DNA from: Nocardioides iriomotensis
GTDB taxonomy: Bacteria > Actinomycetota > Actinomycetes > Propionibacteriales > Nocardioidaceae
Direction: 5' to 3'
NCBI RefSeq assembly: GCF_004168035.1
Contig: NZ_SDPU01000021.1
Coordinates: 124,001-188,000, forward strand
DNA length: 64,000 nucleotides
Positions 17,511 to 59,349 of this stretch are shown one piece after another (the first letter of the stretch is position 1; every line of letters begins with the position of its first letter). The notes under the pieces were generated by a model that saw nothing but the letters and a program-made list of their open reading frames with translations, ran no database searches and was not told the DNA's origin. Position numbers and translations under genes: made by a program.

Positions 17511-18020
17511 ATGCGGAGAGTGAGGGGACCCGTGGCGGTTCTGCGACGGCGCGATGACGGCGGAGCGACAGCGGTCGAGTTCGCCCTCGTCATGCTGCCG
17601 CTGATCTATCTCGTGTTCGGCATCATCCAGTACGGGCTGTACTTCTACGCGATGCAGTCAGGCACCAGTGCAGCCAGCGGCGCCGTCCGGGAGTTGACGG
17701 TCGGCGATTGCCAGGACAACTCGACTCTGAGGGCGTACATCCACAAGCGGCTGGGGCCCGCCTCAACCACCTCTGCCGCGGGGTTGACTTTCTTCAAGGA
17801 GGACGGCTCGACGACGGCGACCGGCCCCGTGTACTACAACTCGTCGAACTCAGAGGTGTCGGCTCCCGGCAATGTTGGTGGGAGAGTCGCACTCACGGTC
17901 AAGTTCCAGGCAATCAACCTGCATTTCCCATTCATTCCGGTGCCGAATGATGGCGAGGTTGTTCGCACGAGCTTTGGGCGAATCGAAAACACCGTGCCGA
18001 CCGGAGGCGGCTGCACATGA
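17511..18020 (+). CDS. TadE-like pilus assembly/pseudopilin-type membrane protein
   Basis: A 169-residue TadE-family protein. DDGGATAVEFALVMLPLIYLVFGIIQYGLYF is the classic TadE segment, with the conserved glutamate before the membrane helix, followed by an extracytoplasmic domain of about 115 residues with two cysteines. TadE proteins are minor pseudopilins or cell-surface partners of Flp/Tad pili. ATG at 17511 lacks a ribosome site, while GTG at 17532 follows GAGGGG and may be the real start (162 residues). It overlaps the next gene by 4 bp. GC content falls clearly from about the middle of this gene. No tadA/B/C genes are nearby. Confidence 0.82.
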   Translation: MRRVRGPVAVLRRRDDGGATAVEFALVMLPLIYLVFGIIQYGLYFYAMQSGTSAASGAVRELTVGDCQDNSTLRAYIHKRLGPASTTSAAGLTFFKEDGSTTATGPVYYNSSNSEVSAPGNVGGRVALTVKFQAINLHFPFIPVPNDGEVVRTSFGRIENTVPTGGGCT

Positions 18021-19909
18021 ATCGTTCTTTGGGTCGCTCCCGAGACGAGGGTGGGGTCGTGGCGATTGTGGTCGCGATCGCTGCTCTCGTGCTGCTCGGA
18101 GTATGCGCTTTGACTGTCGACATCGGGCATGCACTCGTGGAAAAGAGCGGGATGCAAAGGCGCGCCGACTTCTCGGCGTTGGCCGGTGGCGCCGGCGAAA
18201 ACCTCCCCAAAGTGGCCGCCGGAAGCGTATGTGTTCAGGGGCCGTACTCGTGGACCAAACCCAAGGTCGACGACCCCGCGATTGTGGACGCGGTCGCCTA
18301 TCTCAATCGCAACTTGCCAACTGGACCTGATGTATCGCCCACGCAAGTCACCACAGCCGGAGAGCTTCTCAACTGTCGGCTCGGGGATGGAGAAGCTGGT
18401 TACGGCGTCTGGAACGAGCCGGACAGCAACGGGTTTCGATCGTTTACGGCAAACCCTAACCAGCTCAGTGTGATCAGTCAGCCGCGGCAGGTCGACTTTG
18501 GTTTCGCGTCCGTTCTGGGTTTTGACAGCGTTAACGTAGGGGGTCAGGCGACTGTCGAAATAAAGACTCCGTTGATGAAAACGCTTCCCTTCTACGCTTT
18601 CGCGCCTTGCGACTATGGTCAGCAAACCTTCTCCCAGCCTGCGCCCGGGCATGCCGCCACGAACGTGAACCTCGCGGATGCGGGAAACTCGAGCACTTAT
18701 ACGTCGTTCGTCACTGCCACGTCTTTGGAAACCAGTCCGGCGTCCGACCCTCCGGCCATTGCGCACAATCCGTCACCTTCTACGAACGTCCCGCTTGTTA
18801 TCAATGGCACTAACCTCAACACGGTCACCAAGATCGGCTTCTATCAGTCTGGCGAGTCAACGCCCCCTGCTCCTACGTACGTGGATATCGGTGTCACGCC
18901 AGCCGCATGGACGGTGACGGGAACGACCAAAATCAATCTGGCCTCGGTGCCAGCGAACGTAATAAGCACGCAAGGGACATGGTTTGTGCGTGTATTCGGG
19001 CAGAAAAGTGCCAATGGAGCGGGCGCTAGCCAGAAGGCATGGACCCCGATCGTTGACAACCAGGACAATTTGGTGGCTCTGCCTCTCGCGGTGGGCAATG
19101 CCACGCTCTCATGTGAAGAGGGCCCGAGTGAAGGCAACTTCGGGACGCTGAGTCTGGACCGGGAAACTTCTCCGAACGCGGGCGGTGAGCCGGGGGAAAT
19201 TGCACGCAACATTGCGCTCGGGTTGGAGCACGGACTGGCGCCGTTCCCTACCGCGAGGTTGGCGCCGCCGGACTATGTATGCAGTGATGGAGTAAATGAC
19301 GCTCACGAGTGGCCGTACGACGGCACCAACTGTGTGGGGACGAAGCCAGGGTTGCCCAGCGAGGCGGCAGAGAAGGGCTTCGTTACCGGGGTCAGTGGGG
19401 AATACGCTGGTTTGCTGACCAATGTCGACGACGGAACTGGATGCGCAGAGGACGGAAAGCCCGCGACAACGGTGCTTTTGGGCAAGGAAATCAACAACGA
19501 CGTGTTGAGCTGTTTCTTCACAAATGATGACGTGACGGTAGGCGACGTAAGCGCAAGGACATACTCCGGGGATGTCGTGATTAGTCAGACGATATACAAG
19601 TCTTCGCGCTTCGTGCTCATACCTGTACTCGGTCGGCAGCCCGACTGTGGATCGTGTGAGAATTACCAGATTGTCGACTTTCGTCCCGGATTCATCGGGG
19701 AGCAGCCCGATGCCACAACCCGACTCACGAATGATGTCTCGCCGGACAATGGCCTCACTCTCACCAGCAGCAATGGGAACCCGAGCCTCCAGGCCGTCAA
19801 AGTGATCTTCCTCAACCCCAAGGCGCTGCCGGATCCTCCACTGGACCCGAACGGCAACTACATCCCGTACGTGGGAGCCGGAAAGAAGTCCCTGTTGCTT
19901 GTTGACTAA
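18017..19909 (+). CDS. TadG-like secreted or membrane-anchored protein (low GC)
   Basis: A 630-residue protein. Residues 1-45 (RDEGGVVAIVVAIAALVLLGVCALTVDIGHALVEKS) match the N-terminal helix of TadG-like (Flp pilus-assembly) proteins, followed by GMQRRADFSALAGGAG. Nearly all the rest is predicted extracytoplasmic: about 190-235 ends the pilin-like part with CDYGQQTFSQPAPGHA, and 235-350 reads like a beta-sandwich of IPT/TIG type (VPLVINGTNLNTVTKIGF). The C-terminal half has at least eight cysteines (for example CSDGVNDAHEWPYDGTNC), suggesting disulfides. Codon use and GC are strikingly lower than in its neighbours, indicating recent transfer. Translationally coupled to the tadE-like gene. 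Confidence 0.75.
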   Translation: MNRSLGRSRDEGGVVAIVVAIAALVLLGVCALTVDIGHALVEKSGMQRRADFSALAGGAGENLPKVAAGSVCVQGPYSWTKPKVDDPAIVDAVAYLNRNLPTGPDVSPTQVTTAGELLNCRLGDGEAGYGVWNEPDSNGFRSFTANPNQLSVISQPRQVDFGFASVLGFDSVNVGGQATVEIKTPLMKTLPFYAFAPCDYGQQTFSQPAPGHAATNVNLADAGNSSTYTSFVTATSLETSPASDPPAIAHNPSPSTNVPLVINGTNLNTVTKIGFYQSGESTPPAPTYVDIGVTPAAWTVTGTTKINLASVPANVISTQGTWFVRVFGQKSANGAGASQKAWTPIVDNQDNLVALPLAVGNATLSCEEGPSEGNFGTLSLDRETSPNAGGEPGEIARNIALGLEHGLAPFPTARLAPPDYVCSDGVNDAHEWPYDGTNCVGTKPGLPSEAAEKGFVTGVSGEYAGLLTNVDDGTGCAEDGKPATTVLLGKEINNDVLSCFFTNDDVTVGDVSARTYSGDVVISQTIYKSSRFVLIPVLGRQPDCGSCENYQIVDFRPGFIGEQPDATTRLTNDVSPDNGLTLTSSNGNPSLQAVKVIFLNPKALPDPPLDPNGNYIPYVGAGKKSLLLVD

Positions 19910-48725: not shown

Positions 48726-50957
48726 TCAGCCGAGCGAGTCGTCGGCCCAGGGGGCGGCGTGGCGGGGCTGCGCCTCGGCGCGCACCCGCTGGCGGGGGAC
48801 GCCGGCCCGCATGAGGTGGTGCGCGCGGGCCAGGTCGACCGGGCGCGACCAGAGGTAGCCCTGGCCCATCGTGCAGGCGGCCTCCTTCAGCCACGCGGCC
48901 TGCTCGGGGAGCTCCACGCCCTCGGCGACGGTGGTGAGCTGCATCGTGCGGCTCATCGCGATGATCGCCTCGGTGACCGATGCGCCCTCGCGGCCGTCGC
49001 ACACGTTGTCGACGAAGGTCTTGTCGACCTTGAGGATGTCGACCGGCAGGCGGGAGAGGTAGGCCAGCGAGCTGTAGCCGGTGCCGAAGTCGTCGATCGC
49101 CACGTGCACGCCGAGGTCGCGCAGCACGGCCAGCCGCTCGACCGCGCCGGCCATGTCGTCGAGGAGCACCGACTCGGTGATCTCCAGGACGAGGTGGCGC
49201 GGGGCGAGGCCGGAGTCCTCGAGCGCGGCGACCACCCAGTCGACGAAGTCGGCCTGCACGATCTGCTGCGCGGCCACGTTGACCGACATCGTCGGCTGGT
49301 GCAGCGCGGTCTGCAGGCCGACGGCCGCGAAGCAGGCCTCGCGCAGCACCCAGTGGCCGAGCTCGACGATCAGGCCGCTCTGCTCCGCGATCGAGATGAA
49401 CGCCTGCGGGGCGAGCAGACCGCGCGTGGGGTGCTGCCAGCGGACCAGCGCCTCGAAGCCGGTGATCGTCTCGGTGCGCAGGTCGACGGTCGGTTGGAAG
49501 TGCAGCACGAACTCGTTGTCGCGGATCGCGTGCTGCAGCTCGCCGCGGATCGCGAGCCGCTCGAGCGCGAGCGCGTGCAGGCCGGGCTCGTAGTGGGCGA
49601 ACGTCGCCTTGCCGCGGTCCTTGGCCCAGGCCATCGCGACGTCGGCGTTGCGCAGCAGGTCGGAGCCGGTGACGTCGGCGTCAGGGGCGACGGCGATGCC
49701 GATGCTGGCGTGGGCCGACACAGCGGTGTCCTCGAAGCGGAACGGCTCGTTGAGCCGGGTGAGGATGCGCCGAGCGATCTTCTCGGCACCGTCGGCGTCG
49801 CGGCCCTCGAGCAGCACCGCGAACTCGTCACCGCTCATCCGCGCCACCGTGTCGGCCGGGCTGAGCTCGGCCTGCAGGCGGGTGCCGAACTCCGCGAGGA
49901 CCTGGTCGCCCACGCCGTGCCCGCGGCTCTCGTTGACGTGCTTGAAGTCGTCGATGTCGCACATGAGGACGGCCAGGGGCTCCTGGCGTACGGCGAGCCG
50001 GTCGGTGGCGTGCTCCAGCCGGTCGCGGAACAGCTGACGGTTGGCCAGGCCGGTCAACGGGTCGCGCAGGGTGTGCTCGTTGGCCCGGTCCTCCTGGTCG
50101 TGGCGCTCGGTCACGTCGCGGACGGTGAGCACCCAGCCCTCGATCGACGGGTCGTCGGACCGGTCGGCGAGCGTGCCGGTGAGCACCTGGAGCCGGCCCT
50201 CGCCGGCGTCGAGACGGAGCGTGACGTCGTGGTCGCCGCCGCGCGCGGTGACCAGGTGCCGGGCGACGGTGGCGGAGTCGTGGGCGGAGAGCAGGTCGAC
50301 GAGCCGCCGGCCGACCAGGTGCTCGGGCAGGATCCCGAGGATCGCGGACGCCGACGGGCTGACGTAGCTGAGCGTGGAGTCGTGGTCGAGCACGGCGACC
50401 AGGTCCGGGCTGGTCTCCACGAGCGCCGACATCCGGCGGGCGTCGGCGCCGGCGCGCTCGTGGTGGACGAGCTCGCGGGCGAGGGCGCGCTGGCGGCCGG
50501 ACAACCGGCGCAGCCCGAGCAGCGTGCCGAGGGCGAGCAGCGCGAGCAGGGCGCCCGTCAGGCCGAGGGCGTACAGGTCGGCCCGTGCCTGCCGGCGGGA
50601 GAGGTCCTCCCCGATGGCCGCGGTCTGCTCCTCGAGGGCGGCGAAGGCGACGGGGTCGGAGGTGTCCTCGATCCACAGGGCCAGACGCGTCTCCAGCGCC
50701 TCGCTGTCCCCGGCGGCGATGCCGGAGTCGACGACCTTCTGCACCGCGCGGCTGGTGGCCGAGGCCGCCTCGGTGCCGGGCCGGCGGCCCATGCCGTCGA
50801 GGCTGCCGCTCAGCCGTGCATAGGCGGAGTACTGGGCGTCGACGCGGTCGTCGAGCGCGTCGACGGCGCGCAGCGCACCGAACGCGGCCACGGCGAGAAG
50901 GACAGCCCCCACAGCGGCCCCGCCGACGCCTAGCCGCACGACCCGGCCCTGGTCCAT
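48726..50957 (-). CDS. Membrane PAS-GGDEF-EAL cyclic-di-GMP enzyme
   Basis: A 743-residue protein with two membrane helices (about 8-30 and 129-150) bracketing a roughly 95-residue extracytoplasmic sensor. Then come a PAS domain (about 175-300, SALVETSPDLVAVLDHDSTLSYVSPSASAILG), a GGDEF domain and an EAL domain. The cyclase signature is SGDEF (near 373), a variant still active in many proteins. The EAL domain has EALVRW, NVAAQQI, DDFGTGYSSLAYL and KVDKTFV, so phosphodiesterase activity is plausible. Start ATG 50957. Upstream sequence to 52433 in this frame belongs to the transporter gene's strand and is not coding here. Confidence 0.92.
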   Translation of the reverse strand: MDQGRVVRLGVGGAAVGAVLLAVAAFGALRAVDALDDRVDAQYSAYARLSGSLDGMGRRPGTEAASATSRAVQKVVDSGIAAGDSEALETRLALWIEDTSDPVAFAALEEQTAAIGEDLSRRQARADLYALGLTGALLALLALGTLLGLRRLSGRQRALARELVHHERAGADARRMSALVETSPDLVAVLDHDSTLSYVSPSASAILGILPEHLVGRRLVDLLSAHDSATVARHLVTARGGDHDVTLRLDAGEGRLQVLTGTLADRSDDPSIEGWVLTVRDVTERHDQEDRANEHTLRDPLTGLANRQLFRDRLEHATDRLAVRQEPLAVLMCDIDDFKHVNESRGHGVGDQVLAEFGTRLQAELSPADTVARMSGDEFAVLLEGRDADGAEKIARRILTRLNEPFRFEDTAVSAHASIGIAVAPDADVTGSDLLRNADVAMAWAKDRGKATFAHYEPGLHALALERLAIRGELQHAIRDNEFVLHFQPTVDLRTETITGFEALVRWQHPTRGLLAPQAFISIAEQSGLIVELGHWVLREACFAAVGLQTALHQPTMSVNVAAQQIVQADFVDWVVAALEDSGLAPRHLVLEITESVLLDDMAGAVERLAVLRDLGVHVAIDDFGTGYSSLAYLSRLPVDILKVDKTFVDNVCDGREGASVTEAIIAMSRTMQLTTVAEGVELPEQAAWLKEAACTMGQGYLWSRPVDLARAHHLMRAGVPRQRVRAEAQPRHAAPWADDSLG

Positions 50958-51057
50958 CACCACCCCTGTCACCCCGCAGGCCCCCACCTGCACACTCGCG
51001 TGTCGCGATGAAGGTAACCGCTGGTCCGGCCGAAACCGCGCATATGCGACGCCGAAA

Positions 51058-51099
51058 CGCCGGTGGCCTCGACAGTCTTTGACGTCGGGGCCACCGGCG
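51058..51099 (-). terminator. 16-bp stem terminator of the sulfur-type operon
   Basis: CGCCGGTGGCCTCGAC (51058-51073) pairs with GTCGGGGCCACCGGCG (51084-51099) over 16 positions with one G-U, and a 10-nt loop. On the minus strand it lies 31 bp after the YeeE-like stop and is followed by GTTTCGGC. Confidence 0.7.
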
Positions 51100-51130
51100 T
51101 CCGGTGACGGTGGTACGGCGGGGCGGTCGG

Positions 51131-52408
51131 TCAGCAGACGCTGTCGACGGGCTTCGGGTTGGTGAGCCCGAACAGCGGCCGCAGCCGCAGGCCGGCGAAC
51201 GTGCCCAGCAGGGCCATCGCGCCCCACAGCCACCCGTGCAGGCTGAACGACGAGATGCCGCCGAAGTAGGCGCCGATGTTGCAGCCGAAGGCGATCCGGG
51301 CGCCGTACCCCATGAGCACGCCGCCGATCACCGCCCCGAGGGCGAGGCGGCCCGGGATCCGACGGTGCACGATGAACGCGCCGGCCGCCGCCGAGGCGAC
51401 CATGGCGCCGAGGATGACGCCGAAGTCCATGACCGACGTCTTGTCGAGCAGCACGGACGCCTCGAGCTTCGGGGCGTTGAGCTCCTGCTGCCAGTAGGGC
51501 CACGACGCCACGTCGACGCCGAACCAGGACAGCCACTTCGAGCCCCACAGCGCGAACGCCGACGTCACGCCCCAGCCCTGGCCGGAGACGGCGAGGGTGA
51601 GCGCGTTGAGCCCGGCGAGCAGCACCCCGCCCGCCCACAGCGGCCACGAGCCGCGCAGGGCGCGGGCGACGCCGCGCGCCGACGGCGGGTGCTCGACCGG
51701 GGGCGGGTTGCGGCGCCGGCCGACCACCACGGTGATCCCGGCGATCGCGGCCATGACGGCCAGCGAGACCGCCCAGGCGCCGGCGTACCCGAGCGGCGTG
51801 CTCGTCGCCAGCGAGACGGCGGGGCCGGTCGGCATCGACTCGGCCCAGAACTGGAAGTGGTACGCGCCGAGCACCGACCCGGCGATGAAGCCGCCGAGCG
51901 TGATCAGGATCGAGGTCTGGCCGCTGCCGATCGCGAACAGCGTGCCGGACGCGCAGGAGCCTCCGAGCTGCATGCCGACGCCGAACAGGAACGCGCCGAT
52001 GACGACGCCGGACCCCAGCGGTGAGACGAAGCCCATCGTGGGCTCGCCGGAAAGGCTCACGCCGCCGGCGAGCAGCGGAGCGAACAGCGTGCAGGCCACC
52101 GCGAGCATCAGCATGTGCGCGCGCAGCGCCTTGCCCTGGCCGACGGAGACCAGCTGCCGCCAGGCGGAGGTGAAGCCGAACCGGCTGTGGAACAGCACCA
52201 GGCCGAGGGCCAGGCCGATCAGGAACAGCGTGAACATCACCCAGCCGGCGGTGACGAACGTGAGACCGGCGAGCACGAGCGAGGCGAGCAGCGCGGCGAG
52301 CACCACGCCGACCTGGGGCGGTGGCTGCTCGGCGGCGGGCGGGGCGGGTCGGGAGGGCGCGACGGACCGGCTGCGGCCCGTGGCGCCGACGCGATCGGCG
52401 ACGGACAT
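51131..52408 (-). CDS. YeeE/YedE-family membrane transporter (sulfur compound type)
   Basis: A 425-residue protein with about ten membrane segments in two related halves, as in YeeE/YedE (Sul_transp) proteins that import thiosulfate or handle selenium. Each half has the conserved cysteine motif: GVGMQLGGSCASGTLFAIGSGQ near 150-171, and GYGARIAFGCNIGAYFGGIS near 382-401. The ATG at 52408 follows AAGGAG; an upstream ATG adds six residues. A GTG-like longer start was rejected. It is the last gene of a four-gene minus-strand group and ends before a strong hairpin. Confidence 0.88.
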   Translation of the reverse strand: MSVADRVGATGRSRSVAPSRPAPPAAEQPPPQVGVVLAALLASLVLAGLTFVTAGWVMFTLFLIGLALGLVLFHSRFGFTSAWRQLVSVGQGKALRAHMLMLAVACTLFAPLLAGGVSLSGEPTMGFVSPLGSGVVIGAFLFGVGMQLGGSCASGTLFAIGSGQTSILITLGGFIAGSVLGAYHFQFWAESMPTGPAVSLATSTPLGYAGAWAVSLAVMAAIAGITVVVGRRRNPPPVEHPPSARGVARALRGSWPLWAGGVLLAGLNALTLAVSGQGWGVTSAFALWGSKWLSWFGVDVASWPYWQQELNAPKLEASVLLDKTSVMDFGVILGAMVASAAAGAFIVHRRIPGRLALGAVIGGVLMGYGARIAFGCNIGAYFGGISSFSLHGWLWGAMALLGTFAGLRLRPLFGLTNPKPVDSVC

Positions 52409-52422
52409 GACGTTTCTCCTTG

Positions 52423-53820
52423 TCACTTGTCACTGCGAGGGACGGGCTGCTCCGGGGCGGCGAGCGGGCCGCTGACGCGGGTGACCGTGCCGCCGGGGAA
52501 CCACGCGACGTCGGACTGGTGGGTCGCGTGGCCGGAGCTCGCCGGCAGGTACGCCGCCCGGGAGGCGGCGTACAGGCTGGCCGGCTCGGGTCCGACGACG
52601 CCGCGGGCCTGCGCCCACGCCAGGAAGCCGGACCCGGTCGGCGTGCTCCCGGGGAGCAGCCGCTGCAGCGCGCCGGTGAACCGGACCGCCTCCTCGCCTC
52701 GGACGTCGAAGCGGAGCGGCAGCACGACGCCGGGGACGGCGTCGACGAGCTGCGGGGTGAGCAGCCAGGGCGCGAGCCACACGCCCTGGTCGTGGACCGC
52801 GCCGCGTCGTTGCGCGCGGGCCGTGGTGGCGAGGACCTCCGCGCCGGCCGTCCAGCCGGACGTGACCAGGAGGGCGCTGCCGGGCCGGGGCCTCGACGGG
52901 TCGACCTCGTCGGTGCCGCGCACCGGGAGGCCGGCCGCGGTCGCGGTCCGGCGTACGACGTCCCCGGCCGCCCGTCCGCGGGCCGAGTCGTCGCTGCTGA
53001 GGGTGAGCACCCGGGCGCCGCGGTCGGCGAGCAGCCGGACCACCTGGCGCAGGGCGTCGGCGTCGGCCGTCCCGAGCGCGTCGCTGGGGCAGGGCGCCGC
53101 GTCGGTGCCGCCGGCCATCCGGGCGGAAGCCTGGGCGACGGCGCACTCGGCGCCGTCGGCGCGCGTGGTCGTCGCGGGGGAGGCCGGGGTGCCCGAGCCG
53201 GTGTCGACCGGGAACGGCACGCGGTGGTCCCGCCCGTGGCTGACCAGCACCTGGCCGGCGCCCTCGGGCAGCCGCACGCGTGCCCACAGCCCGCCCACTC
53301 CCGGGCGGGGGGAGGCGCGCACCGACGGCCCGTCGGCGAGCCCGACGGTGACGGGTGCGCCGTCGTGCGAGCCGCCGCGCGCCGTGACGGTGTGCCGTCC
53401 GGTCCCGTTCATCGACCGGGTGTCGACCCGGACCAGGTTCGGGCCGGGTCGCGCCGGCGTGACGGTGACGGTGAACAGCACGTCGTCGTGCACCTGGCGC
53501 GCCACGAGCGGCTGTCCGGGGACGAGCTCGCCGCCGAGCACCTCGACCGCGGCCTGCCGTTGCGACCCGACCTGGTCGAGGGTGTCGCCCGACCCGTCGG
53601 GCGCGAGCGGCGCATAGGCGGGCAGCGCATCCGGGGTGGGCGCGGCGGCGGGAGCCACCGCCGTGCGGTCGGTCCGGGGCAGGACCAGGGCGGCGGTCAC
53701 CACGGCCGCGACGGCGACCGTCGCGACCACGATGCGGGGGAGTGCCCCCGGGCGGGGGGCCGGCGTCGGCCGGCCCCCCGCACGGGTGGTGTCACTCGGC
53801 TGGTCAGTCGACGATGTCAT
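52423..53820 (-). CDS. Membrane-anchored protein of unknown function in the sulfur-type group
   Basis: A 465-residue protein I cannot assign. A proline-rich cytoplasmic tail (1-27) and one membrane helix (about 29-48, RIVVATVAVAAVVTAALVL) precede an exported part. Residues 110-215 look like a small beta-sandwich reminiscent of YtkA/CopD C-terminal domains (FTVTVTPARPGPNLVRVDT). Residues 225-460 have the alternating pattern of a type I periplasmic-binding fold (ADALRQVVRLLADRGARVLTLSSDDSARGRAAG). It overlaps the propeller gene by 17 bp and precedes the transporter gene by 14 bp, so it is in the same operon. A ligand-binding or metal-handling role is guesswork. Confidence 0.6.
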   Translation of the reverse strand: MTSSTDQPSDTTRAGGRPTPAPRPGALPRIVVATVAVAAVVTAALVLPRTDRTAVAPAAAPTPDALPAYAPLAPDGSGDTLDQVGSQRQAAVEVLGGELVPGQPLVARQVHDDVLFTVTVTPARPGPNLVRVDTRSMNGTGRHTVTARGGSHDGAPVTVGLADGPSVRASPRPGVGGLWARVRLPEGAGQVLVSHGRDHRVPFPVDTGSGTPASPATTTRADGAECAVAQASARMAGGTDAAPCPSDALGTADADALRQVVRLLADRGARVLTLSSDDSARGRAAGDVVRRTATAAGLPVRGTDEVDPSRPRPGSALLVTSGWTAGAEVLATTARAQRRGAVHDQGVWLAPWLLTPQLVDAVPGVVLPLRFDVRGEEAVRFTGALQRLLPGSTPTGSGFLAWAQARGVVGPEPASLYAASRAAYLPASSGHATHQSDVAWFPGGTVTRVSGPLAAPEQPVPRSDK

Positions 53821-55717
53821 CGTCGGCGGTGACGAACAGCATCGAGTGCGGCTTCGCCGGCCCGTACTCGCCGTGCGGCCAGGCCGCCCGGTCGAAGTCG
53901 ATGCACGGCGTCCCGGTCCGCTCGTCCCGGAACTCCTCGTCCAGGCTGAGCGTGCCGTCCTCGGCCTGGTCGGCGACGCACACGCGGTGGTCGCCGTTCA
54001 GGCCGGTGCGGGCGACGAAGTAGTTGGCGTAGGCCAGCCGGTCCGGGCTGGTCGTCTCGCGGTACTTCCCGTCCGCTCCGAGCTCGAGGTTGTCCAGCGC
54101 GCCCCAGTGCGGCTGCCCGGGAGCGGGCAACGTGTCCACGATGGCGGGGCAGTCGCTCTCGTCCCCACCCGCGGTGACCTCGTCGAGCGTGTCGATCGAG
54201 CACTGCGGGGAGTCCCCGGACGCGAGCAGCTGCTGGATGTCGAGCACGAGGATGTACGGCGCGGAGCCGGGGTCGTCGCCGCTGGCGGGACGGCCCATCA
54301 CCGCGTGGTACAGGTACCTGTCGTCCGGGCTGGTCTGCACCCAGCCGCCGTTGGAGCCGCCGCCGTACGGGTTCGCGCTGCCGGCGTGCTTGTTGGAGGC
54401 GGTCAGGTCGAACACCTCGCGCCACTCCGGCTTGTCGGCGGTGATGTCGGGGGCGTAGTAGATCGCGCCGCCCTGCATCGTCTGGGCGAAGGCGCCCTTG
54501 TGCTCCGGCAGGTTCGTCACGGTGGTCTCCATGACGGCCCGGTTCTCCTCGTGGTGGGCCACCAGTCCCTTGCGCGGGCCGTCCGGGAGGAACGACACCG
54601 CCTTCAGCTTCGGGTGGTCCTTGTCGGAGATGTCCCAGGTGCGGACGGTCGGGCGTCGCAGGTACGACGACGGCGCCTGCACCGGGTTGAGGATGATGTT
54701 GCGCGGCTCGTTGTAGTCGCTGGTGACGAGGATGTCGAGGTCCTCACGAGCCTGGATGCCGTGCGGGTTGGCGCACGTCGACTGCGGCAGCAGCGGGATG
54801 TTGTCGCACCGCTCCGTCGTCTCGGCGGTCTCCGGGGTCGCCGGAGCCTCGCTGATGGTCTTGCCGTCCGGGTCGAGCCGGACCACCTCGCCGGGGCTGC
54901 CGCCGAAGCCGTTGCCGACGCGCGTGGAGCCGTCGGTGTAGGTGCACGGACCGGGCAGGTCCGGGCCGCCCATGTAGGTGCCGTAGGCCCCGCCGTCCTC
55001 GGTGACCCAGTAGGCGTCCGGCACCGAGCCGCAGAGCGTGTCGGTGGGCAGGTTGACGCCCTTGATCGACAGCTCCGGCAGCTGCGACACGTCGAACACG
55101 TAGGTCACGTCGGTGAACAGCCCGCCGGCGAAGATGTTGTCGCCCTTGTGCCAGACGTACTGCATGTGGTGCGGCTCGTTCTCGACGAGCGGCCCCACCG
55201 TGGCGGTGTTGACGACCTCGCCGTACGTCGGCGAGCCCTTGGTGGCGTCCACGACGGCGAGGAAGTCGGGTCCCGGCAGGTCCTTCTGGCCGACGGTGTC
55301 CGGCCCGACGGTGCCGGGGAGCGTGGTCAGCTCCTTGCCGCTCTTGTCGGCGACGTTGACGTCGCCGGCCCAGACGATCAGGTACTCCTGGGCGGTGCCG
55401 TCCTCGGCGGTCGCCTCGACCTTCTGGGTGTCCAGGTTGTTCTGGACCCAGTAGCTCTTGCCGTCGCTGCCGGTGATGGTCGACTTCTTCTGGAGCACGT
55501 CGCCGACGGCGCCGACGGTGCTGCCGATCGTGCCCGTCACGGTGCCGGTCAGGTCACCGGTCGTGTCGCCCGTCGGGTCGCCGAGGCCCCCGAGGTCCTC
55601 GAGCGGGCTGGTGAACGACGTCGCCGCCACCGGGGTCACGCCCAGGGCCAGGGGGACGGCCAGGGCGAGTGCGGTCCCGGCGACGAGCCGTCGCGGGGAC
55701 AGTCTTCTTCTGTGCAT
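53804..55717 (-). CDS. Secreted SBP56 (selenium-binding protein/methanethiol oxidase)-like propeller
   Basis: A 637-residue exported protein. The signal peptide is at about 1-32, followed by a Gly/Thr-rich linker. The remainder follows the SBP56 pattern: PDFLAVVDATKGSPTYGEVVN and ENEPHHMQYVW (about 150-190) match the family PDYLATVD...ELHH region, then TYVFDVSQLPEL, NPHGIQAREDLDILVTSDYNEPRN, PTVRTWDISD and QTSPDDRYLYHAVMG. His residues at PHH, NPHG, AHHEEN and QPHWG are candidates for a metal site. Known relatives oxidise methanethiol to sulfide, formaldehyde and peroxide using copper. GGAGG stands before the ATG. Assignment rests on remembered motifs. Confidence 0.6.
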   Translation of the reverse strand: MHRRRLSPRRLVAGTALALAVPLALGVTPVAATSFTSPLEDLGGLGDPTGDTTGDLTGTVTGTIGSTVGAVGDVLQKKSTITGSDGKSYWVQNNLDTQKVEATAEDGTAQEYLIVWAGDVNVADKSGKELTTLPGTVGPDTVGQKDLPGPDFLAVVDATKGSPTYGEVVNTATVGPLVENEPHHMQYVWHKGDNIFAGGLFTDVTYVFDVSQLPELSIKGVNLPTDTLCGSVPDAYWVTEDGGAYGTYMGGPDLPGPCTYTDGSTRVGNGFGGSPGEVVRLDPDGKTISEAPATPETAETTERCDNIPLLPQSTCANPHGIQAREDLDILVTSDYNEPRNIILNPVQAPSSYLRRPTVRTWDISDKDHPKLKAVSFLPDGPRKGLVAHHEENRAVMETTVTNLPEHKGAFAQTMQGGAIYYAPDITADKPEWREVFDLTASNKHAGSANPYGGGSNGGWVQTSPDDRYLYHAVMGRPASGDDPGSAPYILVLDIQQLLASGDSPQCSIDTLDEVTAGGDESDCPAIVDTLPAPGQPHWGALDNLELGADGKYRETTSPDRLAYANYFVARTGLNGDHRVCVADQAEDGTLSLDEEFRDERTGTPCIDFDRAAWPHGEYGPAKPHSMLFVTADDDIVD

Positions 55718-55772
55718 GCAGAACCTCCGAGAGAGAGCGGGCCGGAGCCCACAGGTTCATGTCAACAAACAC

Positions 55773-55783
55773 AAGTAACTTAG
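55773..55783. promoter_or_regulatory. AAGTAACTTAG motif upstream of the propeller gene
   Basis: A near-palindromic 11-mer 56 bp upstream of the propeller start. GAGTAACTTGG, sharing AGTAACTT, lies upstream of the rhodanese gene (57202-57212, minus strand). Possible common regulator site. Confidence 0.3.
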
Positions 55784-55803
55784 TGCAGTTTGACGGGGGA
55801 ACG

Positions 55804-57168
55804 TCAACCGTCCGTCGTCGTGAGTGAGACGCCCGCCGCGGCGGACCGCTCCACGTCGTCGTCCACGTGCACGACGGGACGGCCCGCGGCGTGCAGGAGG
55901 GAGGCGCCGATCGACGCCCGGTAGCCGCTCCTGCAGTGCACCCACACCTCCCCGTCCGGGAGTGCCTCGTGGTCCGGGACGAGCTCGTGCAGCGGCACGT
56001 TGACCGCACCCGGCACGTGGCCGTCGTCGAACTCGTCCCGGCCGCGCACGTCCAGGACGAAGGGTTCGCCGTCGGTCCGCGCGTCCGCCAGGTCCTCCCA
56101 GCGCAGGCGCCGGTAGCCGGGACATCCGGTCGCCGGCTCGGGTCCGGGGTGCGGCTCGACCTCGCCGACCGCCACGTCGTCGACGCCGATCCGTTGCAGG
56201 TCCACGACGGCGCGCTCGAGCGGCTCGGTGTCGTCGGCGACGAGGACGAGGCGCTGGCCCCAGGGTGCGAGCCAGCCGAGGTACGTCGCCGCCTGGTCGC
56301 CGTACTCCACGCCCCACGAGCCCTCGTGGTGCGCGCGGGCGTAGGCCTCCCGGTCCCGGAGGTCGACGAGACGGGCACCGCCCGCGACGGCCGACCGGAC
56401 GCCGGCGGGGTCGAGCGGCGCGGGCGCCGGAGGCGGCGGAAGCTGGTGCCGGTTGAGCTCGGCCATGTGCTCGTAGTAGCGCGGGTAGGCGCCGAACCCC
56501 GCGAGCAGGCCCCGGACGAACGTGTCCTCGTCCTCGGTGGTGAGGGCCGGGTTCGTGGCGGCCTGGTCGGCGAGCGTGGATCCCTCCGGGGTGTCCGCCG
56601 TCGTGGAGGCGCAGAAGCTGCCGAAGCCGTGCGTGGGCAGCAGCCGGGTCTCGCCGGGCAGCGTGTCGTGGAGCCGGCGCACCGAGCGGTGCTGGGCACG
56701 CGCCAGCGGCTCGGCGAGCTCCTCTCCGAGCAGGTCCGTGCGCCCGACGGTGCCGAACAGGAGGCTGCCGCCGGTGAACAGCGCGGGCGCCTCGCCGGCG
56801 TCCGTCGTCACGAGGAAGGCGAGGTGCTCCGCGGTGTGCCCTGGCGTCGCGATCACCTCGACCTGCAGGTCGCCCACCTGCACCTTGTCGCCGTCGAACA
56901 CGGGGGAGCGGAGGAAGCGGAGCGGCGCTGCGGCCGCCACGAGGTGCCGGGCCCGGTGCCGGTCGGAGAGCCGTCGCGCGCCGGACACGAAGTCGTTGTG
57001 CACGTGGGTCTCGGCGACGGCGACGATCCGGACCCCGGCCTCCTCTGCGGCGGCCTCGAGCGCCTCGACGTCGCGGGGTGGGTCGATCGCCAGCGCGTGG
57101 CGGCCGTCGTGGGCGAGGTAGCTGCGGTTGCCGAGCTGGCTGACCGGCACGGTGACGACCTGGGGCAC
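55804..57168 (-). CDS. Metallo-beta-lactamase-fold/double rhodanese protein (persulfide-metabolism type)
   Basis: A 454-residue fusion. Residues 1-245 are a metallo-hydrolase domain of the ETHE1/CstB type with ETHVHNDFVSGA (H55, H57, D59; the usual next His is Phe) and GHTAEHLAFLV near 110. Two rhodanese domains follow: the first (about 258-345) lacks a catalytic cysteine (LVLVADDTEP), the second (about 362-445) has it in VWVHCRSGYRAS near 414. Such proteins oxidise persulfides to sulfite or thiosulfate. GTG start with AGGAGG. It is the first gene of the minus-strand sulfur-type group. Confidence 0.9.
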   Translation of the reverse strand: MPQVVTVPVSQLGNRSYLAHDGRHALAIDPPRDVEALEAAAEEAGVRIVAVAETHVHNDFVSGARRLSDRHRARHLVAAAAPLRFLRSPVFDGDKVQVGDLQVEVIATPGHTAEHLAFLVTTDAGEAPALFTGGSLLFGTVGRTDLLGEELAEPLARAQHRSVRRLHDTLPGETRLLPTHGFGSFCASTTADTPEGSTLADQAATNPALTTEDEDTFVRGLLAGFGAYPRYYEHMAELNRHQLPPPPAPAPLDPAGVRSAVAGGARLVDLRDREAYARAHHEGSWGVEYGDQAATYLGWLAPWGQRLVLVADDTEPLERAVVDLQRIGVDDVAVGEVEPHPGPEPATGCPGYRRLRWEDLADARTDGEPFVLDVRGRDEFDDGHVPGAVNVPLHELVPDHEALPDGEVWVHCRSGYRASIGASLLHAAGRPVVHVDDDVERSAAAGVSLTTTDG

Positions 57169-57201
57169 GGCTCCTCCTGAGCGCTGACGAGTGTTAGACG
57201 A

Positions 57202-57212
57202 CCAAGTTACTC
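57202..57212. promoter_or_regulatory. AGTAACTT-containing motif upstream of the rhodanese gene
   Basis: Minus-strand GAGTAACTTGG, 34 bp upstream of the GTG. It shares AGTAACTT with the motif before the propeller gene. Confidence 0.3.
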
Positions 57213-57254: not shown

Positions 57255-58664
57255 TCAGTGGCCGCCGACGAAGGGTGCCATCGCGCGGGCGAGCACGCTC
57301 GGCCTGCCGGTCAGCCGCTCCTCGGCGTCGGCGATCGTCATCACCCGCAGGCCGGCGTTGACGCCGAGCCAGCGCAGCGGCTCCGGCTCCCAGCGGCGCG
57401 ACCGGTGGCCGACCCAGGGGAGCCGGGTCAGCTCGGTGTCGTGGCCGAGCACGAGGTCGCGCAGGGTGCGGCCGGCCAGGTTGGTGGTGCCGACGCCGTC
57501 GCCGACGTACCCGCCGGCCCAGGCCAGCCCGGTGACCCGGTCGAGACCGACCGACGCGCACCAGTCACGGGTGATGCCGAGCGCGCCGCCCCAGGCGTCC
57601 GTCCACGAGACGCCCTCCAGGGCGGGGAGCATCGCGGTCGCGCTCGCGCGCAGCCGCGCGAACACCGCGGGCTCCTGGTCGAACGCGGGGTGGGTGCGCG
57701 AGCGGAAGTGGTACGGCGCGCCGCGGCCGCCGAACACCAGCCGGCCGTCGGCGGTGCGCTGCCCGTAGACGATCAGGTTGCGGTGGTCGCTGAACGTCTC
57801 GCGGGCCGCCAGCCCGATCCGGGCCCAGACGTCGTCGGGCAGCGGCTCGGTGGCGACGACGAGCGAGTAGACGGGGACGACCGTGCGGCGCTCGCCGTCG
57901 AGCCCCGGGGTGTAGCCCTCGGTCGCGCGGACGACCACGTCGGCCCGCACGGTGCCTCGGTCGGTGCGGACCAGGTGCCGCTCGATGCCGAGCGCGCGGG
58001 TCTGCTCGTGGACGGTGCCGCCGAGCCGCTCCACGGCCCGGGCCAGCCCGCGCACGAGCCGGGCCGGGTGGACTGCCGCGCAGTCCTCGGTGTAGGTCCC
58101 GCCGACGGTGCCGGCCGCGGCCAGCCGGGTGCGGGCCTCCCGCGCGTCGAGCAGCCGCACGTCGCGCTCGTCGCGGCCCCAGGACCGGGCGTGCTCGACC
58201 TCGGCCCGGGCGGAGCGGAGCTGGGCGAGGTTGCGCGCCACCACGACCGTGCCGCCCTTACGGGCCTGCGCGTCGATGCCCTCGGCGTCGGCGACCCGCA
58301 GCACCTCGTCGACGGTCGCGCGCATCTCCCGGTGCTGCGCGAGTGCTGCCTCGCGGCTCGACCCGGGTAGCCGGGCCAGGGCCGCGAGGCTCTTCGGGAA
58401 CAGCGCGGAGCACCAGCCGCCGTTGCGGCCGGAGGCGCCGAACCCGGCGACCTCCGCCTCCAGCACGACCACCCGCAGGGTCGGGTCGGCCCGCAGCAGG
58501 TAGTAGGCGGTCCACAGGCCCGTGAAGCCGGCACCGACGATCGCGACGTCGGCCTCCCGGTCACCGGGCAGTGGCGCCCGCGGCGTCCAGTCCTCGCCGG
58601 CGGTGGCATGCCACAGCGAGAGCCCGTCGTACGACGGGGTCAGGCGGGTCGTGCGAGTGCTCAG
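57255..58664 (-). CDS. FAD-dependent oxidoreductase (PuuB/DAO type), apparent CTG start
   Basis: A 469-residue glycine-oxidase-superfamily flavoenzyme. The family N terminus LTPSYDGLSLWHATAGEDW and the FAD-binding DVAIVGAGFTGLWTAYYLL (GxGxxG at 44-49) are encoded upstream of the first ATG/GTG/TTG codon (GTG 58472), so the real start must be non-standard. CTG at 58664 overlaps the lrp stop as CTGA and has GGGG 6 nt upstream, exactly like the ATGA/GTGA overlaps elsewhere. GFGASGRNGGW near 72 is typical of gamma-glutamylputrescine oxidase relatives. Coupled to an Lrp regulator and divergent from a polyamine importer, so it probably oxidises a polyamine derivative. Confidence 0.85.
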   Translation of the reverse strand: MSTRTTRLTPSYDGLSLWHATAGEDWTPRAPLPGDREADVAIVGAGFTGLWTAYYLLRADPTLRVVVLEAEVAGFGASGRNGGWCSALFPKSLAALARLPGSSREAALAQHREMRATVDEVLRVADAEGIDAQARKGGTVVVARNLAQLRSARAEVEHARSWGRDERDVRLLDAREARTRLAAAGTVGGTYTEDCAAVHPARLVRGLARAVERLGGTVHEQTRALGIERHLVRTDRGTVRADVVVRATEGYTPGLDGERRTVVPVYSLVVATEPLPDDVWARIGLAARETFSDHRNLIVYGQRTADGRLVFGGRGAPYHFRSRTHPAFDQEPAVFARLRASATAMLPALEGVSWTDAWGGALGITRDWCASVGLDRVTGLAWAGGYVGDGVGTTNLAGRTLRDLVLGHDTELTRLPWVGHRSRRWEPEPLRWLGVNAGLRVMTIADAEERLTGRPSVLARAMAPFVGGH

Positions 58665-59143
58665 CGCACACCCCAGGAGTAGGTCTGCTTCTTCAGCTTG
58701 AGGTACATGAACGTCTCGGTGGACACGACGCTCTCGATCGCGCGGATCTTGGTCGACAGCACCTCGAGCAGCGCCTCGTCGCTCTCGCAGACCACCTCGA
58801 CCAGCAGGTCGTAGGAGCCGGCGGTGATGACGACGTAGTCGACCTCCTCGAGCGCGGCGATCTTGTCCGCGATCGGCTCGAGCTCGCCCCGGACCCGGAT
58901 CCCGATCATCGCCTGGCAGGCGAAGCCGAGCTCCAGCGGGTCGGTCACGGCCACGACCTGCATGACGCCGCCCTCGATGAGCCGCTGGACGCGCTGGCGC
59001 ACGGCAGCCTCGCTCAGGCCGACGACCTTGCCGATGGCGGCGTACGAGCGCCGCCCGTCCTGCTGGAGCTCCTCGATGATCGCCTTGGAGACGTCGTCGA
59101 GCACGACAGCGTTCCCGCCGTTCTTCCCGCTTCGTGCGTTCAT
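58661..59143 (-). CDS. Lrp/AsnC-family regulator
   Basis: A 160-residue Lrp/AsnC regulator. The HTH is in SKAIIEELQQDGRRSYAAIGKVVGLSEAAVRQRVQRLIEGG (about 19-60). The RAM ligand domain spans 75-150 (GIRVRGELEPIADKIAALEEVDYVVITAGSYDLLVEV). The ATG at 59143 is 6 nt downstream of a -10 box and has no ribosome site, so it is leaderless. Its stop overlaps the flavoenzyme start by 4 bp. Divergent placement suggests it controls both this pair and the pot operon, with a polyamine or amino acid as signal. Confidence 0.9.
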   Translation of the reverse strand: MNARSGKNGGNAVVLDDVSKAIIEELQQDGRRSYAAIGKVVGLSEAAVRQRVQRLIEGGVMQVVAVTDPLELGFACQAMIGIRVRGELEPIADKIAALEEVDYVVITAGSYDLLVEVVCESDEALLEVLSTKIRAIESVVSTETFMYLKLKKQTYSWGVR

Positions 59144-59149
59144 GGGGGG

Positions 59150-59178
59150 ATAGTGGCAGGGGAACTGAGAGCCGTCAA
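59150..59178 (-). promoter_or_regulatory. Promoter of the lrp-like gene
   Basis: On the minus strand TTGACG (59178-59173) and CACTAT (59155-59150) are 17 bp apart, and the -10 ends 6 nt before ATG 59143. Confidence 0.5.
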
Positions 59179-59240
59179 AGAATCTGCCCTCACAAACCAT
59201 AGGAATTCGTTGCGGGGAGGTTACGTGTCCACCGAATCCC

Positions 59241-59269
59241 TTGTGGGCACCCCCTGCCTCTGACAGTAT
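59241..59269 (+). promoter_or_regulatory. Promoter of the pot operon
   Basis: TTGTGG (59241-59246) and CAGTAT (59264-59269) are 17 bp apart. Transcription would begin near 59276, giving a leader of about 75 nt with GGGAGG before the potD-like ATG. It is back to back with the lrp promoter, about 60 bp away. Confidence 0.5.
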
Positions 59270-59349
59270 CCACACCAGCCGCCTCGGTCGCAGCGCTGCA
59301 CCGTGCCGGTCTGTCAGCTGCCCCCGTGCTGAGGGAGGACCGTTCCTCG

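Follow-up and report, generated by a model that had tools for sequence, protein, structure and literature searches.

A 64,000-nt stretch of the Nocardioides iriomotensis genome (contig NZ_SDPU01000021.1, positions 124,001 to 188,000 of the forward strand; hereafter the window) carries four minus-strand open reading frames (ORFs) that read, in order, as a metallo-beta-lactamase (MBL)-fold protein with two rhodanese domains, a secreted beta-propeller, a membrane-anchored protein and a YeeE/YedE-family transporter (window 51131-57212). We propose, at about even confidence, that this group is an extracellular sulfur-scavenging module combining a copper propeller oxidase, a copper partner, YeeE import and MBL-rhodanese transfer. 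Judged by its fold, its conserved ligand residues and its context, the secreted propeller would be an SBP56-derived, copper-dependent oxidase of thiols (organosulfur compounds) acting outside the membrane, and the anchored protein would be its dedicated copper handler, delivering copper in the place of SCO1. Profile comparison and modelling suggest that this partner may descend from a copper membrane protein of the CopD type, fused to a type-1 periplasmic-binding-protein (PBP)-like domain with a Met/His tail. The released sulfur, as sulfane sulfur or thiosulfate by analogy with SoxT and TsuA, would enter through the YeeE-family transporter, and the MBL-double-rhodanese protein may pass it on to assimilation or oxidation, a transfer for which its second rhodanese domain is a plausible agent; elsewhere, the same enzyme-partner pair belongs to a sulfite reductase operon. 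By analogy, the system probably works like a methanethiol oxidase (MTO) module, and MTO is described as generating sulfane sulfur (PMC10936201). It was not filed as MtoX/SBP56 because some defining features fail when tested.

An earlier note on this DNA had described a four-gene group in which the last three minus-strand genes are almost contiguous and the rhodanese gene lies just upstream, and the ORFs reproduced this arrangement (Table 1). The propeller and anchored-protein genes overlap by 17 nt, the anchored-protein gene is separated by 14 nt from the transporter gene, whose ATG is preceded by a ribosome-binding-site-like aaggag, and 86 nt lie between the MBL and propeller genes.

Conservation was examined in a wide scan with one genome per species, in which 82 propeller loci were found and 80 kept; these, with the window fragment (L001) and a relative (L002), made up an 82-locus set whose counts are lower bounds, some contigs ending early. 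A homologue of the anchored protein was present in 77 of the 82 loci, every time on the propeller's strand and close behind it, with a median gap of 26 nt (longest-ORF starts; 73 of the 75 loci passing the distance filter). The five loci without it comprised two whose contigs end too early (L030 and L070), one with a CopC-CopD fusion instead (L002) and two with no partner match within their stretch (L014 and L066). The propeller and the anchored protein are thus a nearly obligate pair found in many actinobacteria. In Umezawaea beigongshangensis two tandem propeller genes precede the partner gene (L064:7890-11400), and near the partner-less propeller of Actinomadura xylanilytica lies an ORF (L066:10596-11500) resembling what we take to be a formylglycine-generating-enzyme/sulfatase-modifying-factor protein. 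Canonical SBP56 loci served as a partner test, and none of 18 such stretches, some cut by contig ends, held the partner. One of the 18 (L207:9040-11724) has a YeeE gene within ~40 nt upstream of its canonical SBP56 gene; this YeeE is 61% identical to that of the window, a further link between SBP56 and YeeE.

The transporter gene was found within ~4.5 kb of the propeller in 34 of the 82 loci, on the same strand in 26. Among 245 sampled genomes of the family, the propeller occurred in 11, the window's own included. All eight other family loci of this propeller type, which belong to one genus, have the propeller, partner and YeeE genes adjacent, and six of the eight also have the MBL gene, upstream in L096, L098, L099, L101 and L102 and, in L100, downstream past YeeE. 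In the other two family loci (L104 and L105) the propeller is accompanied by CopC-CopD. The earlier note had made its reading depend beforehand on the four genes staying together in related genomes, and all four did so in these six loci; because it is conserved in other genomes, the grouping is not a product of chance. Nor is the adjacency of YeeE background, since any YeeE match was found in just 10 of 39 relatives, a set that includes the window's genome. A propeller tree of 57 rows, built with a quick method and accompanied by long-branch warnings, placed YeeE in both main parts of its partner-bearing portion. The most divergent propellers (L002, L104 and L105; ~37% identical) are followed by a true CopC-CopD fusion which, judged by its sequence, is a second type of copper partner.

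The surroundings of the pair outside the family gave the best hint that it serves sulfur acquisition. On three Streptomyces plasmids, among them pSA3239 of Streptomyces lavendulae, the pair lies between phosphoadenylyl-sulfate reductase and nitrite/sulfite reductase genes, with cysC, cysD, a gene for a GTP-binding protein and a sulfonate-type ABC transporter beside it; in the annotated records examined, both genes of the pair are called 'hypothetical protein'. A contiguous propeller-partner-sulfite reductase order was also present in L071, L072, L073, L075 and L077 (Streptomyces/Saccharothrix), and the sulfite reductase context marks the Streptomyces/Saccharothrix clade of the propeller tree (8 of 11 rows). 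A further Streptomyces plasmid keeps only cysD near the pair, and another has no sulfur gene nearby; these are five of six matching records, the sixth being a second S. lavendulae entry. Acquisition is favoured because the pair sits in what is an assimilatory sulfate-reduction operon in these genera. On the last two of these Streptomyces plasmids (L225 and L227) the pair is found among SARP regulators and genes such as those for AMP-binding proteins, P450s or acyltransferases, a hint that it may be connected with secondary metabolism.

Fold and profile comparisons tied the propeller to SBP56. The AlphaFold2 model (pLDDT 82.7, pTM 0.85) had as its best Foldseek match 2ECE, a Sulfolobus SBP56 (E 4.6e-16), ~six orders of magnitude ahead of the runner-up (1.5e-9). 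In VIA-align, 2ECE gave the longest alignment among 50 rows (372 residues, Z 28.9), with Z-scores that do not single it out (1l0q, 29.9 over 296 residues; 7bid, 28.7 over 284). Profile-profile alignment against 16 canonical SBP56 proteins drawn from the same phylum extended over 342 columns (hhalign probability 93, E 3.5e-7). Of the sub-alignments, the blade-2 one containing H183-H184 was secure (probability 97.3, E 7.3e-11); that containing H624 was moderate (probability 57.6, E 1.4e-5), the full-length profile alignment stopping before this residue. H183/H184, D234, H319, E397, H537 and H624 were invariant in 44 of 44 homologues. Weak local alignment and strand positions suggest canonical SBP56 counterparts for four of these: D234 faces the first His of HXXH, E397 faces the Glu, H319 is near the Asp of YDFW, and H537 coincides with or adjoins the Gln of GGPQM. 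Described ligands in the known proteins are H73, H74, H137, H140, D189 and E252 of SELENBP1 (PMC10362175) and His89, His90, His140 and His412 of Hyphomicrobium MtoX (PMC5739008). The propeller therefore shares with SBP56/MtoX (PF05694, NF052453; Hyphomicrobium MtoX, SELENBP1, 2ECE) its fold, a PDxxAxxDxxxxSxTYxxVV...HH stretch and a C-terminal His, and shares with Hyphomicrobium MtoX secretion and a copper-protein-like gene next door. On these profile and model comparisons it is a very distant relative of SBP56/MtoX.

Copper-dependent MTO is described with SCO1 and MauG neighbour genes (PMC5739008). Neither was found among the four genes by Pfam; MauG (PF03150) had no match anywhere in the genome, and the single SCO1 match (PF02630) is on contig C15, a different contig from the group. 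The earlier note's placement of the anchored protein in the operon position of SCO1/MauG was thus borne out: unlike that of MtoX, the propeller's partner is CopD/PBP-like. The note had left this protein unrecognised, and its PBP-like domain, its Met/His tail and its near-obligate pairing with the propeller were added here. The partner model (pLDDT 82.3, pTM 0.78) has one transmembrane (TM) helix, a beta-sandwich and a C-terminal domain; in this model the last is a type-1 PBP fold, matching 3lop (Z 15.7, 207 aligned, rmsd 3.1) and 3lkb (Z 15.7, 219 residues) in VIA-align and giving a best Foldseek E-value of 9.1e-5 with TM at most 0.35. The match spans ~60% of the PBP chain, sequence-family support for the domain was absent from Pfam and NCBIfam, a sequence search with the partner returned no PDB chain at a useful E-value, and a SCO1-type thioredoxin fold was not among the structural matches listed.

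The link of the partner to copper was seen mainly in its longer relatives. Hydropathy indicated more than one TM helix in 73 of 76 homologues and five to nine in 67 of them. A profile of 23 full-length relatives aligned to seven CopC-CopD/CopD proteins over 237 columns (probability 91.5, E 8.6e-7), collinear over CopD and the domain that follows it, as in Bacillus subtilis YcnJ (CopC-CopD-YtkA), described as supporting copper-dependent oxidases/cuproenzymes (PMC13344008). The last 45 residues of the homologues contain 9.8% Met+His versus 1.4% in the preceding 215, and a tail motif (e.g. MPMxPxEPHAPGMPM or HxxH; pattern written after seeing the alignment) was present in 70 of 75. Unlike YcnJ, the partner lacks CopC, has mostly lost the CopD His residues and has gained the PBP-like domain and Met/His tail. 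Because the CopD resemblance, the tail and the role of YcnJ point the same way, the best reading of sequence and model is that the partner probably handles copper. The YtkA/CopD-like part claimed earlier for this protein is accordingly half upheld: the CopD likeness is visible in the longer relatives only, and the YtkA profile did not match the beta-sandwich.

Assignment of the transporter to YeeE/YedE, also made in the earlier note, stood up to the Sulf_transp profile (PF04143; 225.4 bits versus a cut-off of 27), and, as in TsuA, SoxT1 and YedE/FdhT, this domain spans most of the protein. Scores against the YedE/FdhT model (154.5 bits, cut-off 350) and the TsuA equivalog (84.2 bits, cut-off 400) were below threshold. 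The second and third TsuA Cys (Cys 91 and 293 equivalents) are kept, in GGSCASG and FGCNIG. Unlike TsuA, the ~425-aa transporter has no Cys in its first-helix region, where the first TsuA Cys would lie, carries a conserved C-terminal DSVC and has no linked TusA-family gene. D-x-x-C-stop ended 50 of the 51 homologues read, the exception being only 27% identical. Since the tail occurs also in homologues with no propeller nearby, it is a feature of the transporter subgroup. In the TsuA-YeeD fusion entry 8j4c, the match to the window's YeeE covers residues 3-322 of 460; because fusions of TsuA with the cytoplasmic YeeD exist, the tail should by analogy face the cytoplasm, where it could accept sulfur. 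An unlinked acceptor is also possible, as the genome has one TusA-family match (PF01206), on contig C29 and unlinked to the group. SoxT1A, a YeeE-like protein, is described as importing sulfur for oxidation (PMC11582611). The idea of oxidation outside followed by YeeE-type import of sulfane sulfur resembles that for SoxT1A of Hyphomicrobium; unlike there, the group contains no Sox genes, and the oxidase would be the propeller.

The MBL-fold protein resembles CstB of Staphylococcus aureus in joining an MBL domain to two rhodanese domains with the active-site Cys in the last. It scored 60.8 bits against the Rhodanese Pfam model (cut-off 22.2) and 17.8 against Lactamase_B (cut-off 22.7), with nearly whole-length matches to 3tp9 (E 4.1e-60) and 3r2u (E 3.2e-46). 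Its first rhodanese domain has no Cys, its second has CRSGYR, and the HxHxD and PGHT motifs of the MBL domain are kept.

A number of observations weigh against the scavenging module as proposed. The propeller was sub-threshold in both family models, at 19 bits in SBP56 PF05694 (cut-off 34) and 25 bits in MtoX NF052453 (cut-off 650), and genome-level PF05694 searches gave no match in the window's genome at E<=0.001; a Streptomyces homologue reached 40.5 bits (E 1.1e-10) with the MtoX model, still under its cut-off. The SBP56-like propeller of the earlier note hence survives in fold and profile-profile comparison and fails in Pfam. Blades 3-5 did not align significantly to SBP56 on their own. 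Unlike SBP56/MtoX proteins, the propeller exceeds the aligned canonical proteins by ~180 residues, has its invariant His residues elsewhere (H319 and H537) and does not keep HXXH (SELENBP1 H137/H140): in a weak local alignment PDAYWVTEDG lies opposite PHTVHCLADG, and no such His pair was found among the invariant propeller columns of that region. The Trp of SxWDxQFY, the second candidate for the tryptophan tryptophylquinone (TTQ) cofactor, has no counterpart either, NYFVARxG being aligned there, which agrees with the lack of a MauG match in the genome. The TTQ tryptophans described in RpMTO are W223 and W386 (PMC10936201), and we take the SxWDxQFY Trp to be W386. No Pfam or NCBIfam model recognised the partner; Pfam gave three matches to the window protein, all far under cut-off and none to CopD, and found no CopD in four relatives scanned. 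With a single TM helix, the window partner, unlike YcnJ, lacks the multi-helix membrane part of most relatives. For these relatives the membrane half alone aligned to CopD more weakly (probability 43.5, E 2.4e-4), the sandwich alone did not align (probability 0.4, E 0.14), and of the 23 relatives, six retained the first of the two invariant CopD His residues and none the second. The linkage is likewise uneven. YeeE lies on the opposite strand in 8 of the 34 YeeE-bearing loci, and on the tree the Streptomyces clade and several of the Amycolatopsis rows lack it. The MBL gene occurs in 2 of the 82 loci, the window itself included, the sole other one (1 of 81) being a metagenome-assembled genome (MAG; L003), and on the tree its link is confined to the window's ten-row clade (8 of 10 rows). 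None of six same-genus genomes searched, two of them <90% complete, has the propeller. Finally, the Asp iron ligand of the MBL site is Gly in 22 of 22 distinct actinobacterial homologues, the window's included, unlike in CstB and BpPRF; the iron site of AcPDO is described as H57, H113 and D130 (PMC6060420). With this third ligand replaced, persulfide dioxygenase activity is doubtful from the sequence, and instead of a dioxygenase the protein may be a sulfurtransferase or of a new kind. Of the earlier statement that MBL-rhodanese proteins oxidise persulfides, the CstB architecture therefore applies here and the iron site does not.

One rival reading, in line with the earlier note, takes the group as detoxification, with a toxic thiol or sulfide oxidised outside and leaked-in persulfides cleared by the MBL-rhodanese protein. 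The CstB-like architecture would fit this, as would the linkage of the MBL gene in six of eight family loci and in MAG L003 and a rare 9-mer common to the upstream regions of the MBL and propeller genes (picked post hoc; see below). Yet the Gly substitution makes the required dioxygenation doubtful, the MBL link is restricted to one clade, a YeeE importer makes little sense in pure detoxification and the Streptomyces context is assimilatory. We regard detoxification as rather unlikely, and the handling of persulfide stress inside the cell is a weakened claim: it is not the sole reading, and the Streptomyces/Saccharothrix sulfate-assimilation operon favours acquisition. Selenium uptake, by YedE/FdhT-type transport of selenium species with a selenium-binding propeller, draws on the YedE/FdhT score and the family name SBP56, but that score is under its cut-off, the neighbours are sulfur-assimilation genes wherever the context is informative, and the oxidase activity of SELENBP1 is described as needing no selenium binding (PMC10362175); it is judged very unlikely.

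The other two alternatives concern the pair itself. The anchored protein might be a substrate receptor whose PBP-like domain catches the sulfur product at the membrane and hands it to YeeE. Type-1 PBPs commonly bind small solutes, the structural match has a Z-score of 15.7 over 207 residues, and the gene sits between those for enzyme and transporter. Against this, the partner persists where YeeE is missing, its Met/His tail and CopD resemblance point to copper, and the match takes in only part of the PBP chain at low Foldseek TM; a receptor role therefore seems improbable. We also consider it unlikely that the propeller lacks redox copper chemistry and instead has another extracellular sulfur activity (a lyase or hydrolase) or is a binding protein, its SBP56 likeness being a matter of shared fold. 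The family scores under cut-off, the loss of HXXH and the propellers that match or exceed the Z-score of 2ECE would all suit such a protein, but 2ECE leads in Foldseek, the blade-2 HH stretch aligns with SBP56, and a CopD-like or CopC-CopD protein adjoins the propeller.

Two further features flank the genes of the proposed scavenging group. The 4.7 Mb genome contains two copies of the pattern AGTWACTTG, one preceding the MBL gene and one preceding the propeller gene, and 3 of the reversed pattern used as a control. It was picked after comparing these two upstream regions, and by rough reckoning two such stretches would fairly frequently share a 9-mer with one mismatch. A similar sequence, AGTTAGTTG, precedes the propeller gene of the MAG relative L003; none of the 10 family loci showed the pattern, and a looser form is upstream of 4 relatives only. 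Given this post hoc choice and sparse recurrence, AGTWACTTG is only a lead to regulation. A palindrome form of the element, with 2 mismatches allowed, was not significant. Beyond the transporter gene, the strong terminator of the earlier note was confirmed as a stable hairpin (-44.6 kcal/mol, z -6.45; 0 of 200 shuffles equally stable), though its U-run is short, just UUU beyond the stem, and a consensus terminator scan limited to loops of 3-8 missed it.

Table 1 Features of the four-gene group and its flanks (window coordinates)
Feature	Position	Strand	Remarks
MBL-fold and double-rhodanese gene	55804..57168	-	454 aa; CstB-like architecture
Secreted propeller gene, predicted distant SBP56/MtoX relative	53804..55717	-	637 aa
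Membrane-anchored partner gene	52423..53820	-	465 aa; one TM helix, beta-sandwich, type-1 PBP-like domain, His tail
YeeE/YedE-family transporter gene	51131..52408	-	425 aa; ATG at 52408
Signal-peptide-like N-terminus of propeller	55622..55717	-	hydrophobic peak at residues 12-30
H183-H184 (ENEPHHMQY), counterpart of SBP56 XHHX copper motif	55166..55171	-	44/44 aligned homologues
H624 (KPHSM), opposite C-terminal invariant His (AHEM) of canonical SBP56	53846..53848	-	44/44
Beta-sandwich domain of partner with PxRPGxNLV motif	53203..53523	-	called 'YtkA-like' after the YcnJ layout
Type-1 PBP-like domain of partner, residues 215-460	52441..53178	-	fold of model
GHATHQ, counterpart of relatives' Met/His-rich tail	52516..52533	-	from alignment
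C-terminal DSVC of transporter	51134..51145	-	D-x-x-C-stop in 50/51 homologues read
AGTAACTTG, candidate operator/promoter element	57203..57211	-	34 nt before MBL gene
AGTTACTTG, second copy of element	55772..55780	-	54 nt before propeller gene
Terminator-like hairpin after YeeE gene	51057..51100	-	perfect 12-bp inverted repeat, then TTT

Downstream of the hairpin, on the same strand, is a gene for a PAS-GGDEF-EAL cyclic-di-GMP protein (window 48726-50957). Upstream of the group are a DAO-type FAD oxidoreductase (57255-58472) and an AsnC regulator (58661-59275), which also precede the propeller group in five of the eight family loci (L096, L098, L099, L101 and L103), showing synteny of the locus across part of the family. 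Farther away, a low-GC stretch (18017-19909; 59% versus ~73% around it) contains a 630-aa ORF with a Tad-type N-terminus.

More tentatively, and with less than even confidence, we suggest that these propellers may be an unrecognised class of secreted copper thiol oxidases that would mature without TTQ or MauG, each with its own membrane metallochaperone, a CopD-like/PBP1 fusion bearing a Met/His copper tail. They would take the first step of an actinobacterial extracellular route from organosulfur to cysteine, in which YeeE would import the sulfane sulfur and its conserved C-terminal DSVC would be the cytoplasmic sulfur acceptor where Escherichia coli uses YeeD. Neither the pair nor the cluster was described in the titles and abstracts listed by searches of open-licence literature, which is no proof of absence. 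If correct, this would extend copper chemistry of the methanethiol oxidase type to secreted actinobacterial proteins whose genes are called hypothetical in the annotated records examined, would provide a maturation route for copper propellers that uses neither SCO1 nor MauG, and would link C-S chemistry outside the cell with sulfur import of the YeeE type and with a sulfite reductase operon.

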